A stretch of DNA of 64,000 nucleotides, taken from assembly GCA_001642945.1 (NCBI GenBank), contig LGRT01000018.1:186001-250000 (forward strand). The letters are read 5' to 3'. The notes under the pieces are model-generated. The model saw nothing but the letters and a program-made list of their open reading frames with translations, did no database searches and was not told the DNA's origin. The position numbers and the translations under genes are program-made. Position 1 is the stretch's first letter; each line of letters begins with the position of its first letter. Shown in pieces: positions 35,790 to 43,440 of the stretch. Source of the stretch: Rhodobacteraceae bacterium SB2 (GTDB lineage: Bacteria; Pseudomonadota; Alphaproteobacteria; Rhodobacterales; Rhodobacteraceae).

Positions 35790-35818
35790 ACCCCAGCAAA
35801 ACCAAGGCTTTGAGGGCC

Positions 35819-36619
35819 ATGGCCATGCCCGGTGACGCAACGCCTGAAACCGTCAAAAAAGGCGATGGCGACGTGCAACAACGCCTCACATATCCACGCA
35901 TCGTTCCTGTGGGGTTAAACGGCTTTCTGGTGCAGTTCAGCGGCGGCTTGAACGAAACCTCAAATCGCGCTGCCTTGGCGTTTAAGGCCGCGATTGACCA
36001 GCAGGCGTGGCGCGGCATCGAAGAAACCAGCAGCACGTTGGCGTCAAGCTTTCTGCGATTTGACACAGCTGCCCTGACCCATTCTCAGATGCGCGCGCGG
36101 CTAACAGAGTTGCTTGAGCAACATGATTGGTATCAGGCCGCGCTGCCCCGCGGACGTCGTTTGTTCATGATTCCCTGCGCTTTTGATGCTGCAAACGGGC
36201 CACAATTATCCCACGCAGCAGAGCTGGCCGGGATGGACAGAGCCACGGCCGTCCAAAGCTTGACAGCTGCGCCGCTGCGGGTGATGGCCATAGGATATGC
36301 CCCGGGCCAACCTTATGCCGGCGAGTTGCAACCGGCTTGGGATATTCCGCGTATGGAGCACGTGAACCCAAAAGTCCCTGGCGGCGCATTGGTCGTGGCG
36401 ATCCGGCAAGTGATAATTTTTGCCGCCGATAACCCAACCGGCTGGCGCCATGTTGGGCAAACTGCCTTTCAATGCTTTCGCCCCCAACAGCCCGATAATC
36501 CCTTTGCGCTGCGCCCGGGGGATGAATTGCAATTGCAATCCGTATCGGCAGAACAGCTTTTTAACCTTAAAAGCCAAGATCACAGCGGTGATGGCGGCGC
36601 AGTGATTCGCGCTTTGTGA
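35819..36619 (+). CDS. pxpB: 5-oxoprolinase subunit B
   Basis: PxpB works with PxpA and PxpC as the ATP-dependent prokaryotic 5-oxoprolinase, turning cyclic 5-oxoproline into glutamate. From ATG 35819 it has 266 residues, slightly longer than usual because of a variable N-terminal 20 residues. It then runs PRIVPVGLNGFLVQFSGGLN, and the conserved core VMAIGYAPGQPYAGELQPAW lies near residues 157-176. ATG 35819 has GAGGG upstream; ATG 35825 is an alternative. The stop overlaps the pxpC start, and the order B-C-A with coupled ends makes the assignment strong. Confidence 0.91.
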   Translation: MAMPGDATPETVKKGDGDVQQRLTYPRIVPVGLNGFLVQFSGGLNETSNRAALAFKAAIDQQAWRGIEETSSTLASSFLRFDTAALTHSQMRARLTELLEQHDWYQAALPRGRRLFMIPCAFDAANGPQLSHAAELAGMDRATAVQSLTAAPLRVMAIGYAPGQPYAGELQPAWDIPRMEHVNPKVPGGALVVAIRQVIIFAADNPTGWRHVGQTAFQCFRPQQPDNPFALRPGDELQLQSVSAEQLFNLKSQDHSGDGGAVIRAL

Positions 36620-37641
36620 TGGCCGGGCTAAAGATCCTCTCCTGTGGCGCTCATGCAAGCATTCAAGATTTTGGTCGCCCAGGTTATTTGGCTCAAGGGC
36701 TTTCGAAATCGGGCGCCGCAGATTGTTTGGCGTTGGAGGAAGGCGCCGTACTTCTTGGGCAAGTCAGCGGCGATGGGGCACTAGAGATGGCTGGGTTTGG
36801 CGGCGTCTTCCAAGCTCAAGGTGATATCAAAATTGCGTTAACCGGTGCCCCGATGAACGCAGAGCTGGACGGAACGTCCGTGGCTTGGAACGCCGCGCAT
36901 CATCTGCCAGATGGGGCAATTTTGCGCTTAGGGGGGGTGCGAGCGGGCACGTATGCCTATTTGTCGGTGGGAGGCGGCTTCGACACAGAAGTTTTTTTGA
37001 AGGCCCGTGCTGCGCATCGTGCGATTGGAATCGGCGAGGCGTTGGCTGCAGGCGCCACTCTGCCGATCGGCCCGCACGAGAAACCCTTTATCGGCCAAAA
37101 ATTAGAGGTAGACGATCGCTTCCAAGGGGGCAGCATTCATATCGTCGCCTCGGTTCAAACCGATCTTTTCAGCCCAGCTGAGCGCGCGCGCTTTGAAAAT
37201 ACAATTTTCACCCGCGACATTCGTGCCAACCGCATGGGCATAAAATTAGACTTTGAAGGCGCGCCGTTTCAAATAAGCAATCAACTTAAAATTCTTTCAG
37301 AAATCATCGTGCCAGGGGATATTCAAATGACCGGTGATGGACGCCCCTTTGTCTTGATGCCGGAATGCCAAAGCACCGGAGGTTATCCACGGATTGGAAC
37401 GGTGCTTCCGAGTGATCTACCAAAAATCGCGCAAGCCGGCTTAGATGCCCCGATTACGTTTAAATTTCTATCGCTTGAACAAGCGCTTGAATATGAAAAC
37501 CGGTATACTGAACGCGTGTCTCAATTATCTGACCGCTTGCATCCATTGTTGCAAGATCCCTATAAAATGAACAACCTCTTGTCGCTTCAATTGATCGGAG
37601 GCGTGGTGTCGGCCTTCGATGCAGGAGATGCAAAGCAATGA
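36619..37641 (+). CDS. pxpC: 5-oxoprolinase subunit C
   Basis: This is the second 5-oxoprolinase partner, of the biotin-dependent carboxyltransferase-like (allophanate hydrolase subunit 2) fold. It has 340 residues. The N-terminus KILSCGAHASIQDFGRPGYL matches the family opening (x-IQDxGRxGY). LPSDLPKIAQAGLDAPITFK near residues 257-276 is another conserved part. ATG 36619 overlaps the pxpB stop (TGATG), and a GTG three bases earlier is possible. The 3' end overlaps pxpA as ATGA (37638-37641). No biotin site is present, as expected for this subfamily. Confidence 0.92.
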   Translation: MAGLKILSCGAHASIQDFGRPGYLAQGLSKSGAADCLALEEGAVLLGQVSGDGALEMAGFGGVFQAQGDIKIALTGAPMNAELDGTSVAWNAAHHLPDGAILRLGGVRAGTYAYLSVGGGFDTEVFLKARAAHRAIGIGEALAAGATLPIGPHEKPFIGQKLEVDDRFQGGSIHIVASVQTDLFSPAERARFENTIFTRDIRANRMGIKLDFEGAPFQISNQLKILSEIIVPGDIQMTGDGRPFVLMPECQSTGGYPRIGTVLPSDLPKIAQAGLDAPITFKFLSLEQALEYENRYTERVSQLSDRLHPLLQDPYKMNNLLSLQLIGGVVSAFDAGDAKQ

Positions 37642-38399
37642 AAAATATTGATTTAAATGCGGATATGGGGGAAAGCTTCGGCCCCTGGAAAATGGGCAAT
37701 GACGGCGCTCTTTTACAAGTGATCACCTCGGCCAATGTTGCTTGTGGCTTTCACGCAGGGGATCCAGATGTGATGCAGCAAACAATGCAGCAGGCGCAGG
37801 ATTGCGGGGTCGGTATCGGCGCGCATCCGGGCTTTGACGATCTGCAAGGGTTTGGACGGCGGCGGCTTCACCTATCCAAAACCACGTTGCAAAATCAAAT
37901 ACGTTATCAGATCGGGGCGGCGCAGGCGATGGCGCGCAGCGTTGGCGCTGAAATTCGCCATATTAAACTGCATGGCGCGCTGTCAAACATGGCATCGGAA
38001 CATGCAGAGCTGGCTTATGACGCCTATGAAGCCGCGCTTTCAGTCGCGCCAGAGACCATTTTAATGGTGCTGGCAGCCAGCGCTCAAGAAGAGGTCGCGC
38101 AAAGCTTGCCCTGTCGATACGTTGGCGAAATTTTTGCCGATCGGGCCTATAATGAGGATGCAACGCTGGTGGATCGTTCAATCGAGGGCGCGGTGATCCA
38201 TGATCCAGCGCTGGCGGCTGATCGGGTCACCGAAATGGTGTTAAACGGCAGCATCATCACGCGCTCGGGACAGCCTATAAAAGCTCGAATCGATACAATT
38301 TGTCTGCATGGAGATACGCCAAATGCCCTCAAAATTGCCAAGTCGGTGCGCAGATCACTGGAACAAGCTGGGGTCACCTTGGCGAAATTTTGCCTCTGA
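37638..38399 (+). CDS. pxpA: 5-oxoprolinase subunit A (LamB/YcsF)
   Basis: This is the LamB/YcsF-family subunit of 5-oxoprolinase, 253 residues, the normal length. NIDLNADMGESFGPWKMGND opens the protein, and ANVACGFHAGDPDVM, GAHPGFDDLQGFGRR and IRHIKLHGALSNMAS follow as the family's conserved blocks. It probably contributes the deacetylase-like catalytic barrel. It is coupled to pxpC by ATGA. Its stop is followed by 224 bases before the TRAP operon, so the pxp unit ends here. Confidence 0.94.
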   Translation: MKNIDLNADMGESFGPWKMGNDGALLQVITSANVACGFHAGDPDVMQQTMQQAQDCGVGIGAHPGFDDLQGFGRRRLHLSKTTLQNQIRYQIGAAQAMARSVGAEIRHIKLHGALSNMASEHAELAYDAYEAALSVAPETILMVLAASAQEEVAQSLPCRYVGEIFADRAYNEDATLVDRSIEGAVIHDPALAADRVTEMVLNGSIITRSGQPIKARIDTICLHGDTPNALKIAKSVRRSLEQAGVTLAKFCL

Positions 38400-38546: not shown

Positions 38547-38623
38547 ACTGGTTAGATAACTTGACCAATATTGGGGCTCGGAGGACTGCCCTGCAAAAAA
38601 ATTAAACAGTGAGGAGAAACTGT

Positions 38624-39712
38624 ATGGAACGTCGTAAGTTTTTAAAAGGCGCTGCGATTGGCGCTACTGGCGCTGCTTTGGCGGCACCCGCCGTTGCCGG
38701 TGGTCATGGCAAAACCATGACCGTTGTTGCAACTTGGGGGCGTGACTTCCCGGGCCTCGGAACATCTGCTCAGCGTTTCGCGCGCCGCGTCGGTGAAATT
38801 TCTGACGGTGCCTTGAATGTTGAATATTTCGCTGCGGGCGAGCGTGTTGGCGCGTTTGATTCGTTCAACGAAGTGGCATCTGGCAATAGCCAGGCCTATA
38901 TCGCGGCTGATTATTACTGGATCGGAACGCATCCGGCCTTTGCCTATTTCACCTCTGTTCCATTTGGAATGACTACGCAGGAATGGACGGCATGGATCCG
39001 CTTTGGCGGTGGACAAGCGCTGTGGGATAAAGTGTCAGGCGAATTCGGCTTGAAAGCACTTCCCGTTGGCTCAACAGGCACCCAAGCGGGCGGCTGGTTC
39101 AACAAAGAAATCGAAAGCGGTGACGATTTTAAAGGCCTGAAAATGCGTATTCCCGGGCTTGGCGGAACCGTATTGTCAAAGTTGGGCGCCTCAACCGTGT
39201 CCTTGCCTGGCGGCCAGATCTATGAAAACTTGGTGTCAGGTTCGATCGATGCCACAGAGTGGGTTGGCCCATGGAACGACTATTTCTTGAAATTCTATGA
39301 AGCGACAAAATACTACTACACCGGTGGTATGCATGAGCCAGGCAGCTGTATTGCGCTGGGAATGAACGCTGAATGGTGGGGAAGCCTAACCGATTATGAG
39401 CAAAACGTGATCCAAGCCGCCGCGGCGGAAGAGCACGCGCTGGCGCATGACGAGACGATGGCGCGGAACGGTGAATACCTGACCAAACTGGTCGAAGAGC
39501 AAGGCGTTGAAGTTCGTAACTTTAACGATGATGTTTGGGATGCAATGAGCGAAGGCGCATTGGAAGTGTTCGAAGAAACGCGCGATCACTCTGCGTTGGC
39601 AACCGAAGTTGATGATGCCTATCAAAAAGGCATGCGCGAAATCGGCGGCATGCTCGCACAATTCGAGACAACGTTCTTGAACCAGCGTAACCGCGTATTC
39701 GATATCGGTTAA
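38624..39712 (+). CDS. dctP: TRAP transporter substrate-binding protein (TakP-like)
   Basis: This is the periplasmic binding protein of a TRAP transporter, 362 residues from ATG 38624 (GAGGAG site eight bases upstream). The leader MERRKFLKGAAIGATGAALA carries a twin-arginine motif and ends in APAVAGG, so Tat export is likely. GSTGTQAGGWF near residues 152-162, GLKMRIPG with the carboxylate-binding Arg, and DATEWVGPWND near 209-219 match the TakP branch. Members of that branch bind 2-oxo acids or lactate. A terminator-like hairpin follows the stop, so this gene can be expressed above its permeases. The true ligand is unknown. Confidence 0.9.
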   Translation: MERRKFLKGAAIGATGAALAAPAVAGGHGKTMTVVATWGRDFPGLGTSAQRFARRVGEISDGALNVEYFAAGERVGAFDSFNEVASGNSQAYIAADYYWIGTHPAFAYFTSVPFGMTTQEWTAWIRFGGGQALWDKVSGEFGLKALPVGSTGTQAGGWFNKEIESGDDFKGLKMRIPGLGGTVLSKLGASTVSLPGGQIYENLVSGSIDATEWVGPWNDYFLKFYEATKYYYTGGMHEPGSCIALGMNAEWWGSLTDYEQNVIQAAAAEEHALAHDETMARNGEYLTKLVEEQGVEVRNFNDDVWDAMSEGALEVFEETRDHSALATEVDDAYQKGMREIGGMLAQFETTFLNQRNRVFDIG

Positions 39713-39785: not shown

Positions 39786-40763
39786 ATGACAGCGCCGGAC
39801 ACGGGACACACCGGTCAACCGCAGGCAAAAAGCGCGGTGACCATAAGAGCAGTTTCTTGGGCCTTGCTGGCGATGTTGTTGGCATTTTTAACCAATAATG
39901 TTCTGAACCTTTCTTTTCAAAGCGACACCGAGCTGCGCTGGAACAATCCGCTGCCGATGTTGGTATATTTAATTCCGATGCTTGCGGCGATTTTATTCGC
40001 CCGAGGAACGCCTGGAACGGCCCTACGCCAGGATGCAGATCGCATCCATCGGTTAAACCTCTATCTGGTTAGATCATTGTTTTGGGGCGTGTTTCTGGTT
40101 GGTATGGCAGATGTGGCTGTGGCTTTTTTACGCGTGGAAGGGCTGGCCGAAAGCTTGCTCTGGGAGGGCGCAGCAAAAGACCTGAACAAACCGTTCTTCG
40201 TTGGCCTCAAAATCCACATACCCCTGCTTGTATTTGGCTTCGTTCTCGGCGCGATCACGCGTACAGCTGGGTTTTTGTGGTTGGCTCTGTTGATCGTGGT
40301 TGCCGAATTGGCAATCGTGGTTTCGCGATTCGTCTTCTCGTATGAACAGGCGTTTATGGGTGATCTGGTGCGCTATTGGTATGCCGCGCTGTTTCTATTT
40401 GCTTCTGCCTATACTTTATACGACGAAGGCCATGTGCGCGTTGATATCGTTTATGCTGGCCTGCGTGAGCGCACAAAAGGCTATGCAAACTTCATTGGGA
40501 CGATCTTGCTGGGCCTGTCGACCTGTTGGGCGATCCTCTTGATCGGCCTTGATGGCAAACAGGCATTGATCAACATGCCCATTCTGAATTTTGAGGTCAG
40601 CCAAGCCGCGTCCATCGGGTTGTTTATCAAATACCAAATGGCCGCCTTCCTGGGCGTGTTTGCAATTACGATGTATATCCAATTTGTCAGCTATATGCTG
40701 GAAGCTTGGGCCGATGTTTGCGGCGAACCTGGCAAACGCCAAATAAATCCAACCGGTCATTGA
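39786..40763 (+). CDS. dctQ: TRAP transporter small permease with N-terminal extension
   Basis: This is the small membrane subunit of the TRAP transporter. At 325 residues it is nearly twice the usual 160-190. The DctQ domain is the last half: AELAIVVSRFVFSYEQ near residue 180, then RYWYAALFLFASAYTLYDEG and HVRVDIVY, and a final helix near 290-312. The first 165 residues add about four helices (e.g. SWALLAMLLAFLTNNVLNL and LFWGVFLVGMADVAVAFL). ATG 39786 has AGGTG seven bases upstream. It ends seven bases before dctM. The extension may be a specific feature of this TRAP subgroup, and its role is unknown. Confidence 0.86.
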   Translation: MTAPDTGHTGQPQAKSAVTIRAVSWALLAMLLAFLTNNVLNLSFQSDTELRWNNPLPMLVYLIPMLAAILFARGTPGTALRQDADRIHRLNLYLVRSLFWGVFLVGMADVAVAFLRVEGLAESLLWEGAAKDLNKPFFVGLKIHIPLLVFGFVLGAITRTAGFLWLALLIVVAELAIVVSRFVFSYEQAFMGDLVRYWYAALFLFASAYTLYDEGHVRVDIVYAGLRERTKGYANFIGTILLGLSTCWAILLIGLDGKQALINMPILNFEVSQAASIGLFIKYQMAAFLGVFAITMYIQFVSYMLEAWADVCGEPGKRQINPTGH

Positions 40764-40770
40764 GGTTTTC

Positions 40771-43440
40771 ATGGAACTGTTTTTTCTTTTAATTTTGATC
40801 CTCATAATGGCCACTGCATTGGGCTCGGGCTACCCCGTGGCCTTCGCGCTACCAGGCTCTGCGATCATTACAATCGTTATCGCTGCAATCAGCGGCTACG
40901 CGTTTGAAGGCGATGTTAGCAGCTATTTTCACTCTGGCGGCCCGTCTGAGTGGATCTCAGCCGGGGTCTTAAACCTGCGGGGCGTATATTGGGAAGTGGA
41001 ACGCGATACGCTGATTGCGATCCCTTTATTCATCTTCATGGGCATTATGCTTCAACGTTCAAAGATCGCAGAAGATCTTTTGGTGACCATGGCACGGTTG
41101 TTTGGCCCTGTGCGGGGCGGGTTGGGCATTTCAGTTGTCTTCGTGGGCGCCTTATTGGCGGCCACCACTGGTATTGTCGGCGCAACCGTGGTGGCGATGG
41201 GTCTTATTTCCCTGCCGGCGATGCTGCGTAACAAATACTCTCCGTCCTTGGCAACCGGTACAATCGCAGCCTCAGGCACGCTGGGGCAGATCATCCCGCC
41301 TTCAATCGTGCTGATCATTCTGGCTGACCAATTGGCTTCTGCGGCGGATCAAGCGGGTAGCCTGCGCAAATCCTTATTCAAGGAATCGACCGGAAACCTT
41401 CAGATGCCAAGCGTCTTTGACGTAACCTCAACGAGCGCAGGTGAAATGTTCTTAGGCGCCTTCATCCCGGGCCTGGTTTTGGTGGCGCTCTATATGCTGT
41501 ATATTTTAGGCTACGCGTTTTTAAAACCATCAGCGGCCCCCTCGGTGCCGTATGAAGGGAAATTTGATCGGGCTTTCTGGGGCCAAGTTTTCATTACGTT
41601 GGTGCCCCCTCTTACTTTGATTTTCTTGGTACTGGGGTCGATCATTGCCGGTATTGCAACAGTGAACCAAGCTGGCGCCATCGGCGCAGCAGGTGCTTTG
41701 GTGATGGCCGGATATCGCTTGGTCGATCAAAACAAATGGACGTTTGTACCTGCCTTTTTGGTTATATTGGGGCTGTTGATCACCGGCTATGCACTGCAAA
41801 ACTATGAAATGAATGTCAAAGCGGCCGAGAGCGCCGAGGATATGCAAGGTATTTGGATCGGGGTGCTGGGCGCTCTGGTCATGCTAACTGGAATCATTTG
41901 GAGCGCTATGCGCGTACTCAATATCAACGGTACGTTGCATGGCGTGATGATGGAAACCGCAAAAACCACCGCCTTGGTATTCGTTATTCTGCTGGGGGCC
42001 GCGATGCTAACCGCGGCATTCCGTGCATTTGGTGGCGAGGATTTGGTGCGCGAGTTTTTGAACTCGTTACCGGGCGGCTTCTGGACGCAATTTGTGATTG
42101 TGATGGCGGTGATCTTCGTGCTTGGATTCTTTTTGGACTTCATCGAAATCGCGGTTGTGGTGGTTCCGATTGTGGCGCCGATTTTGTTGGCCGATCCCGG
42201 TGCAAATATAACCGCAGTGTGGCTGGGTGTCATGATCGGCTTGAACATCCAAACCTCTTTTCTAACCCCGCCTTTTGGCTTTGCGCTGTTTTATTTGCGC
42301 GGCGTGGCGCCGGCCGTGGTGCGCACGATCGAAATGTATCGCGGCGTGATCCCTTTTATTCTGTTGCAATTATTGGCTCTGGGGATCGTTGGCAATTATC
42401 CACAATTGGTCAACTATCTGCCTAACCGCTCAAACCTGCTGTCAGAATCTGCGCCGCCGCCGCGCAATCCACGGCTGCAATTCTGCATGGACCAATTCGT
42501 TGGAGATCAAATTGCGGCAAGTGGCGGCGCAACCGTCGCTGCTATCGAGAAAGCAAAACGCATCGATTTGTCAAAACTGTCAGATATTTTGGCCGATCCG
42601 ATTGCCAACTCGCTGAAAGAGGCCGATAAAGCCTTAGAGAACTTGGCACAGATTTCGGTGACAGCTGCGGCGGTGAAAGCCTCAGAGGACAGCTATCGCC
42701 CAATGCTAAGCCAAGTGCGCTCAGTGCAAAAACAACTGCGCCAAGAGAACGAGCATCTTAAAGCCAGCGAAAAAGAACTGGCCCGTTTAAAAGGCGAAGA
42801 GTTTGCACAAAGACGCGCTGCTCTGACCACGGATGTTGCCGACACAAAAGCCAAAATTGCCACGCTAGAAGGCGAGATACCGGCCTCATGGGAAACCGAA
42901 TATGAGACCTTCAGCCTGCTAACCGCCGCCGAAACAAAAGCGCGAAACACCTATCGCAGGGCTGCAGATGGTACGTTTGAAGGGGCTTCAGAAGCTTTGA
43001 TGGTTTTGGAAGCAACATCAGCTTATATCGCACTGGAAGCAGAATTGATCGGCCTTAGGTCAATTATAGAAGCGGTTGAACTTGATGCTGATTACAAATC
43101 CGCAGAAGAGGCCGTGAAACAAGCCGAGCGCAGCGTACGTGCTGTAGAGGGCGCGGATGATGTGAAAAAAGCCTTAGGCAAAGCCAAAAAGGCGCTGGGA
43201 AAACGTAAAAAAGACCGTGAAAAAGCGCTTGCCCATTACGAGGAAGCGCTAGAGCTATACGCGGCCCAGCTTGAGTGGCGCGCGCAGGCTGAAGCGGAAT
43301 TACGCGGCCCTCTGAGTGAATATGTCGAGGCGCTGAAAGGTACATTGGGCGCGCGTTTGCAACCGGCGCTGACCCGCGATCAGGCTCTATTCTTAGCCTC
43401 TTGCACTGCGGTTCATCGTGATTTGTCGCTGAATTTTTAA
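40771..43440 (+). CDS. dctM: TRAP transporter large permease with long C-terminal extension
   Basis: This is the large sodium-driven permease of the TRAP system, 889 residues against 430-600 for usual members. The membrane part runs to about residue 545. It includes VGALLAATTGIVGATVVAMG near 125-144, GQIIPPSIVLIILADQ near 172-187, and NIQTSFLTPPFGFALFYLRG near 492-511, the conserved DctM blocks. Residues about 546-889 are hydrophilic, rich in Lys, Glu and Ala, with coiled-coil-like heptads near 645-690 and 775-845. There is no frameshift or codon change at the junction. ATG 40771 has GAGG eight bases upstream. The tail may regulate or anchor the transporter. Confidence 0.87.
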   Translation: MELFFLLILILIMATALGSGYPVAFALPGSAIITIVIAAISGYAFEGDVSSYFHSGGPSEWISAGVLNLRGVYWEVERDTLIAIPLFIFMGIMLQRSKIAEDLLVTMARLFGPVRGGLGISVVFVGALLAATTGIVGATVVAMGLISLPAMLRNKYSPSLATGTIAASGTLGQIIPPSIVLIILADQLASAADQAGSLRKSLFKESTGNLQMPSVFDVTSTSAGEMFLGAFIPGLVLVALYMLYILGYAFLKPSAAPSVPYEGKFDRAFWGQVFITLVPPLTLIFLVLGSIIAGIATVNQAGAIGAAGALVMAGYRLVDQNKWTFVPAFLVILGLLITGYALQNYEMNVKAAESAEDMQGIWIGVLGALVMLTGIIWSAMRVLNINGTLHGVMMETAKTTALVFVILLGAAMLTAAFRAFGGEDLVREFLNSLPGGFWTQFVIVMAVIFVLGFFLDFIEIAVVVVPIVAPILLADPGANITAVWLGVMIGLNIQTSFLTPPFGFALFYLRGVAPAVVRTIEMYRGVIPFILLQLLALGIVGNYPQLVNYLPNRSNLLSESAPPPRNPRLQFCMDQFVGDQIAASGGATVAAIEKAKRIDLSKLSDILADPIANSLKEADKALENLAQISVTAAAVKASEDSYRPMLSQVRSVQKQLRQENEHLKASEKELARLKGEEFAQRRAALTTDVADTKAKIATLEGEIPASWETEYETFSLLTAAETKARNTYRRAADGTFEGASEALMVLEATSAYIALEAELIGLRSIIEAVELDADYKSAEEAVKQAERSVRAVEGADDVKKALGKAKKALGKRKKDREKALAHYEEALELYAAQLEWRAQAEAELRGPLSEYVEALKGTLGARLQPALTRDQALFLASCTAVHRDLSLNF

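Follow-up and report, generated by a model that had tools for sequence, protein, structure and literature searches.

The locus described here raises a question about how a TRAP transporter can be built. Its large permease continues beyond the last membrane helix into a long, charged domain, and we asked what this domain is, on which side of the membrane it lies and what it may do for the transporter.

The locus

The window (the whole stretch of 64,000 nucleotides that was analysed) contains an open reading frame on the forward strand at 40771-43440, which starts with ATG and runs for 889 aa without an internal stop. This is dctM. On its 5' side lie dctP and then an enlarged dctQ. Both neighbours score above the Pfam cut-offs for DctP and DctQ, and the three genes together constitute a TRAP transporter system with adjacent partners. 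The features discussed below are as follows.

38609-39712, +: dctP, a TakP/SmoM-type solute-binding protein of 367 aa with a twin-arginine-like signal (Pfam DctP 158 bits, cut-off 23.4; PDB relatives 4pet, 7ug8 and 2hzk, TakP; six TakP residues kept)
39786-40763, +: enlarged dctQ, consisting of the next two parts
39786-40250, +: membrane extension at the N-terminus of DctQ, roughly residues 1-155, confined to systems with a tail (absent from tail-less DctQ; its occurrence follows that of the tail)
40251-40763, +: DctQ core, a four-helix small permease (Pfam DctQ, residues 175-301, 39.8 bits, cut-off 28.3)
40771-42426, +: permease domain of DctM, residues 1-552 (Pfam DctM; alignment to solved TRAP M subunits)
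41746-41922, +: two extra permease helices, residues 326-384 (hydropathy; model helices; sequences L132 and L136)
42436-43437, +: tail domain of DctM, residues 556-889, a predicted periplasmic helical arm (conservation in the best relatives; AlphaFold2 of the tail alone)
42454-42471, +: PPPxNP motif of the linker (residues 562-567), at the foot of the tail next to the membrane (562-564, 566 and 567 invariant in 80 rows)
42484-42486, +: Cys572, first tail cysteine (C in 121 of 121)
42583-42786, +: long tail helix of residues 605-672, which if straight would span about 100 A (models; 3.45-residue period)
42796-43011, +: two helices that run back, 676-702 and 707-747; P704 and W707 in the turn between them are invariant (alignment, models)
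43012-43335, +: helical-bundle part of the tail, residues 748-855 (model; generic four-helix matches; largely absent in the divergent L171)
43336-43437, +: C-terminal base of the tail, residues 856-889, GxR ... C ... RDxSLxF (best-conserved part of the tail)
43402-43404, +: Cys878, the other tail cysteine, predicted to form a disulfide with Cys572 (C in 121 of 121)

Where the permease ends

The first part of the 889-aa protein matches the Pfam family PF06808 (DctM) with 208 bits, against a cut-off of 23.8. Its score with the NCBIfam model TIGR00786 is 248.7 bits and falls under the curated line of 268.45; the product of dctM is a clear relative of TIGR00786, yet an atypical DctM. Alignment with the solved permeases of SiaQM and IseQM extends to residue 552 and no further, leaving four residues at the end of 7qe5, and we therefore place the end of the permease near this residue. 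The closest tail-less permeases, which are at most about 51% identical, end 3-5 residues past position 552. A first-pass annotation of this DNA had supposed that other DctM proteins stop after the last helix, and these relatives agree with it. It had also been right about a long helical tail on DctM, but its boundary near residue 545 has to be moved to about 552, leaving a tail of 334 residues (556-889) that is joined to the permease without a break.

Helices 326-384 of the permease also occur in the tail-less relatives that were read (L132 and L136) and hence are not tail-specific; because these relatives share them, they would have arisen before the tail.

The tail domain

The tail has a charged composition in which Ala, Leu, Glu and Lys are abundant, much as had been noted at first (Ala, Glu and Lys). 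Nothing in it is of transmembrane grade by hydropathy, the family-mean maximum over 19 residues being 0.58 compared to 2.0-2.7 for most transmembrane peaks of the permease. The heptad-like segments of the first-pass annotation survive in part: helix 605-672 has a hydrophobic period of 3.45 residues and is coiled-coil-like, but the periodicity of 676-702 and 816-855 is weak.

A structure model of the full-length protein was poor in the permease, much of which had a pLDDT of 34-60, and confident in the tail. Given the tail alone (103 rows), AlphaFold2 predicts an entirely helical domain with a mean pLDDT of 95.5 and a pTM of 0.87. In this model the PPPxNP linker, which the divergent members L172 and L173 have in a relaxed form, leads into a short helix with C572 and then into the 68-residue helix 605-672, from which a hairpin returns through 676-702. 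Next come a turn, in which P704 and W707 are invariant, helix 707-747 and the bundle 748-855. The chain finishes with the C-terminal base, which contains G860, R862 and C878 and has an invariant Phe889 as its last residue.

Neither Pfam nor NCBIfam has a named entry for these 334 residues; a named domain of known function would have told against the annotation. Pfam searches of 20 members gave 19 families, each in a single member and none shared; the weak matches of the window's own tail, DUF7118 and DUF2857, are below cut-off and were not found in other members. Against PDB profiles the tail matched only assorted coiled coils (best E 0.0013), and a Foldseek search with the tail model returned no match at E 0.001 or better. 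A structural aligner matched the model to generic helical bundles. These results do not show the fold to be new.

Distribution and evolution

A scan of genome contigs gave 522 confirmed relatives, of which the best 80 loci were followed up. Permease and tail occur together in all 80. A DctQ partner is present at 78 of these loci and a DctP at 73, several of the remainder being cut by contig ends. P, Q and M are the only genes that the 80 neighbourhoods share, any other gene being found in a small minority; the other large neighbourhood clusters are, judged by position, antisense or shadow frames of the same three genes. Since no other gene is shared, any fixed partner of the tail is most likely P, Q or M.

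Tail matches came from 69 of 394 genomes in a family sample, from 33 of 385 in a class sample (31 if two marginal matches are subtracted) and from 8 of 398 in a phylum sample, one of the 8 being marginal. In every case, marginal matches and frames cut by contig ends aside, the tail is the last part of a reading frame some 840-960 residues long. Two apparent stand-alone tails, a 157-aa frame in G417 and an 82-aa frame with a stop in G1084, are both marginal and were taken as chance coiled coils. The possibility of an assembly-specific fusion, which had been raised at the outset, is ruled out by the 80 best relatives, the family-sample genomes and a 97% identical copy from the same genus. Presence nevertheless varies within the genus: another of its genomes (97% complete) lacks the tail. 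Alphaproteobacteria have the system broadly, together with a few gammaproteobacterial records (Granulosicoccaceae, Chromatiales), and many source records are marine, as judged from organism names and isolate titles. Among 72,556 plasmid records, 904 had a permease relative, none of which covered 80% of the query.

Mean pairwise identity is about 0.37-0.38 for the tail and 0.78 for the permease of the same rows. Within the tail the C-terminal base (856-889) reaches 0.57 compared to 0.38 for the whole, and the long helices and the bundle are least conserved. Compared to the same-genus copy, dN/dS is 0.14 in the tail and 0.013 in the permease. By these sequence measures the tail evolves faster than the permease, yet under purifying selection. 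In a tree of the permease columns, 25 tail-bearing and 22 tail-less rows are split by one branch with full SH-aLRT support; this was a quick tree with some long branches flagged and with rows sampled by similarity to the window. It fits a single origin of the tail, gain and loss not being separable from the tree count.

Two divergent copies deserve a mention. L171, of 838 residues, is a natural deletion variant, without about 90 residues of the bundle but with the base and both cysteines; the tail match in its genome (G844) lacks profile positions 193-283. One genome has two tail-bearing permeases, L116 and L173 (G660:C4:31500-38500), and the L173 copy branches first among the tail-bearing rows of the quick tree.

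The enlarged DctQ

The first-pass annotation had paired the tail with the enlarged DctQ, and the association is close. A search for the DctQ extension in the same 394 genomes gave 69 positives against 69 for the tail, with 68 common to both, i.e. agreement in 68 of the 70 genomes that have either. Both exceptions lie at contig ends. One (G087) has a fragment of the tail alone, right where a contig begins; in the other (G329) there is only a DctQ, on a contig of 3,606 bases and about 530 bases or less from its end. Tail and long DctQ are on one contig in 65 of the 68 genomes, from a reading of the two tables. In tail-less systems DctQ, where found and measurable, has about 165-212 aa.

Side of the membrane

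The M subunit of PpSiaQM is described as N-out/C-out (PMC9971032), and the C-terminus of FnSiaQM is given as periplasmic (PMC11801797). Because solved M subunits have a periplasmic C-terminus, the tail should be periplasmic too, and we consider this placement well supported and very probable. Exactly two cysteines, in the columns of C572 and C878, are present in 121 of 121 tails, 103 of which are less than 80% identical to one another. The class-search set, whose genes partly overlap the 121, has the two tail cysteines in 20 of 20, and the divergent L171-L173 have two each when read by eye. Elsewhere in the system the number of cysteines varies: 0-2 in the permease, 0-7 in DctP and 0-3 in DctQ. 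Relatives of DsbA and DsbB are encoded in this genome. The simplest account, we infer, is a C572-C878 disulfide that closes the base of the tail.

The tail had originally been suggested to link the transporter to metabolism or to energy status, which implies a location in the cytoplasm. A charged, soluble-looking sequence would agree with that. However, solved M subunits are N-out/C-out in the sources quoted, the permease aligns with them up to their last helix, and two invariant cysteines that fit a periplasmic disulfide disfavour a cytoplasmic placement. We would be very surprised if the suggestion were correct. Sensing of substrate and anchoring of the transporter, which had been suggested beside it, return below among the less likely functions of a periplasmic arm.

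The binding protein and its ligand

DctP groups with TakP (2hzk), 4pet and 7ug8 among PDB relatives; an alternative start, MERRKF, lies five codons in and may be the true one. The residues of TakP that contact ligand and cation are defined in PMC1839085. With the mapping indexed by hand from the alignment, Y100, Q156, R177, E214, W215 and E240 of TakP are all kept in DctP, each in 70 or 71 of 71 rows. The likely ligand is a 2-oxo or 2-hydroxy acid together with a cation. In total length DctP (367 aa, against 365 in TakP) would suit a C-terminal swapped helix and dimer as in TakP, but the sequence alignment stops near residue 329. Twenty-two positions of DctP, with a run at 203-232, are fixed in tail-bearing and different in tail-less systems; as the contrast involves 10 tail-less proteins and is confounded by ancestry, it is a lead rather than proof.

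Directly 5' of the TRAP genes and on the same strand, the window has CT_A_B carboxyltransferase and LamB/YcsF genes of 5-oxoprolinase type (35810-38399). These adjoining pxp-type genes suggested 5-oxoproline as a substrate, which we rejected: pxpA occurs at 1 of the 80 loci and at none of the 57 with more than 5.5 kb upstream, and pxpB and pxpC recur at none of the 80, again the best of 522 relatives. The pxp neighbours are local, and therefore the neighbourhood gives no substrate.

Presentation of the hypothesis

We suggest that the dctP-dctQ-dctM system takes up a small carboxylate and that its large permease bears a folded periplasmic helical arm. The arm would begin where the last transmembrane helix ends on the periplasmic side, would have its base closed by the predicted disulfide and would extend as a helical stalk of about 100 A with a variable bundle. 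In PMC9352664, the last helix of HiSiaQM is described as belonging to the elevator bundle, with the C-lobe of the binding protein sitting on the elevator. Because the last helix of solved TRAP transporters belongs to this moving bundle, the arm should ride on the elevator, rising and falling with it beside or around the binding protein. The same source considers a TakP-type dimer compatible with HiSiaQM docking, its second monomer pointing up. The upper monomer of a DctP dimer could be within reach of a long straight helix. As the likeliest of its roles, the arm would then dock or retain a TakP-type, probably dimeric, DctP above the permease, and capture and release would be coupled to elevator movement. 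The larger DctQ would be a larger stator that braces or carries the arm; the authors of the HiSiaQM study suppose that a stator needs a minimal size (PMC9352664).

To this reading as a whole, in which a periplasmic arm on the elevator docks or retains the binding protein and a larger DctQ serves as stator, we give a probability of about 0.5. C-out topology and elevator attachment are taken from solved homologues; conservation, the confident fold, the cysteine pair, co-occurrence with the long DctQ and the conserved ligand site were computed here. The docking of DctP by the arm, where contact and a role in coupling are what we infer, has perhaps a slightly less than even chance. Two findings argue against it. 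Tail-less permeases also use TakP-type binding proteins, meaning that the arm is dispensable for this DctP family, and the distal tail varies freely, down to the missing 90 or so residues of L171, so that a spacer fits as well as a docking surface. Only tentatively, and with the odds somewhat against us, would we go as far as a disulfide-locked, elevator-riding arm that captures DctP and hands it over, i.e. a built-in docking arm and a new way of coupling a binding protein to a secondary transporter.

Several other functions can be imagined for a periplasmic arm. It might be a scaffold for oligomerisation, or might brace the enlarged DctQ and DctM, without touching DctP directly. In its favour, tail and DctQ extension occur jointly, the best-conserved part of the tail is its membrane-near base, and the long helix is coiled-coil-like. 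Yet the solved TRAP transporters are described as monomeric elevators, and a projection of about 100 A exceeds what bracing needs; we find a pure scaffold unlikely. The arm, with its long helix of 68 residues and its periplasmic placement, could also tether the transporter to an envelope structure, such as peptidoglycan, a porin or another outer-membrane partner, and so place it where substrate enters. This seems to us quite unlikely, since the neighbourhoods share no gene besides P, Q and M, Pfam finds no peptidoglycan-binding family in the tail, and contact would fall to the distal part, one of the least conserved.

The bundle could also be a sensor that gates transport according to ligand or envelope state, similar to the helical ligand-binding domains of chemoreceptors. 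It aligns with the McpS ligand-binding domain with a Z of 10.1 and an rmsd of 2.2 over 91 residues. But cytochrome b562 fusions reach the same Z, meaning that the match is generic for four-helix bundles, and the bundle is poorly conserved and mostly absent in L171; such a role is highly improbable.

Implications and comparison with known systems

The strict coupling of TRAP permeases to free binding proteins is described as poorly understood in the abstract of PMC9971032. A conserved arm at the docking site of the binding protein would make this coupling testable by removal of the arm. A search of the literature open without subscription found no paper on a C-terminal domain of DctM.

The system is thus a transporter of a known kind, TRAP, with an unnamed conserved domain on the permease and an enlarged DctQ. 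Genomes of the same family hold another enlargement. In the related DctM proteins L142-L150, of about 780-795 aa, about 200 residues are inserted midway through the permease and nothing is added beyond the last helix; three cysteines are conserved in 8 of 8. Their permease is likewise enlarged, but the insert is not C-terminal, and it is a second, separate enlargement. The tail-less relatives L131-L141 and the plasmid-borne L176-L180 have a permease up to 51% identical to ours and a TakP-type DctP, but they end near 552 and have the short DctQ. TakPQM of Rhodobacter sphaeroides, a 2-oxo acid TRAP transporter compared by TakP (2hzk) alone, has a binding protein of the same family with the same six ligand and cation residues. 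The sialic-acid transporters SiaQM (7qe5, 8thi, 7qha) and IseQM (9pym) share with the present system the DctM fold, by both sequence and structure comparison, and the partner subunits. They differ in that M ends within a few residues of where the tail starts here, without a periplasmic arm, and Q is the small core.
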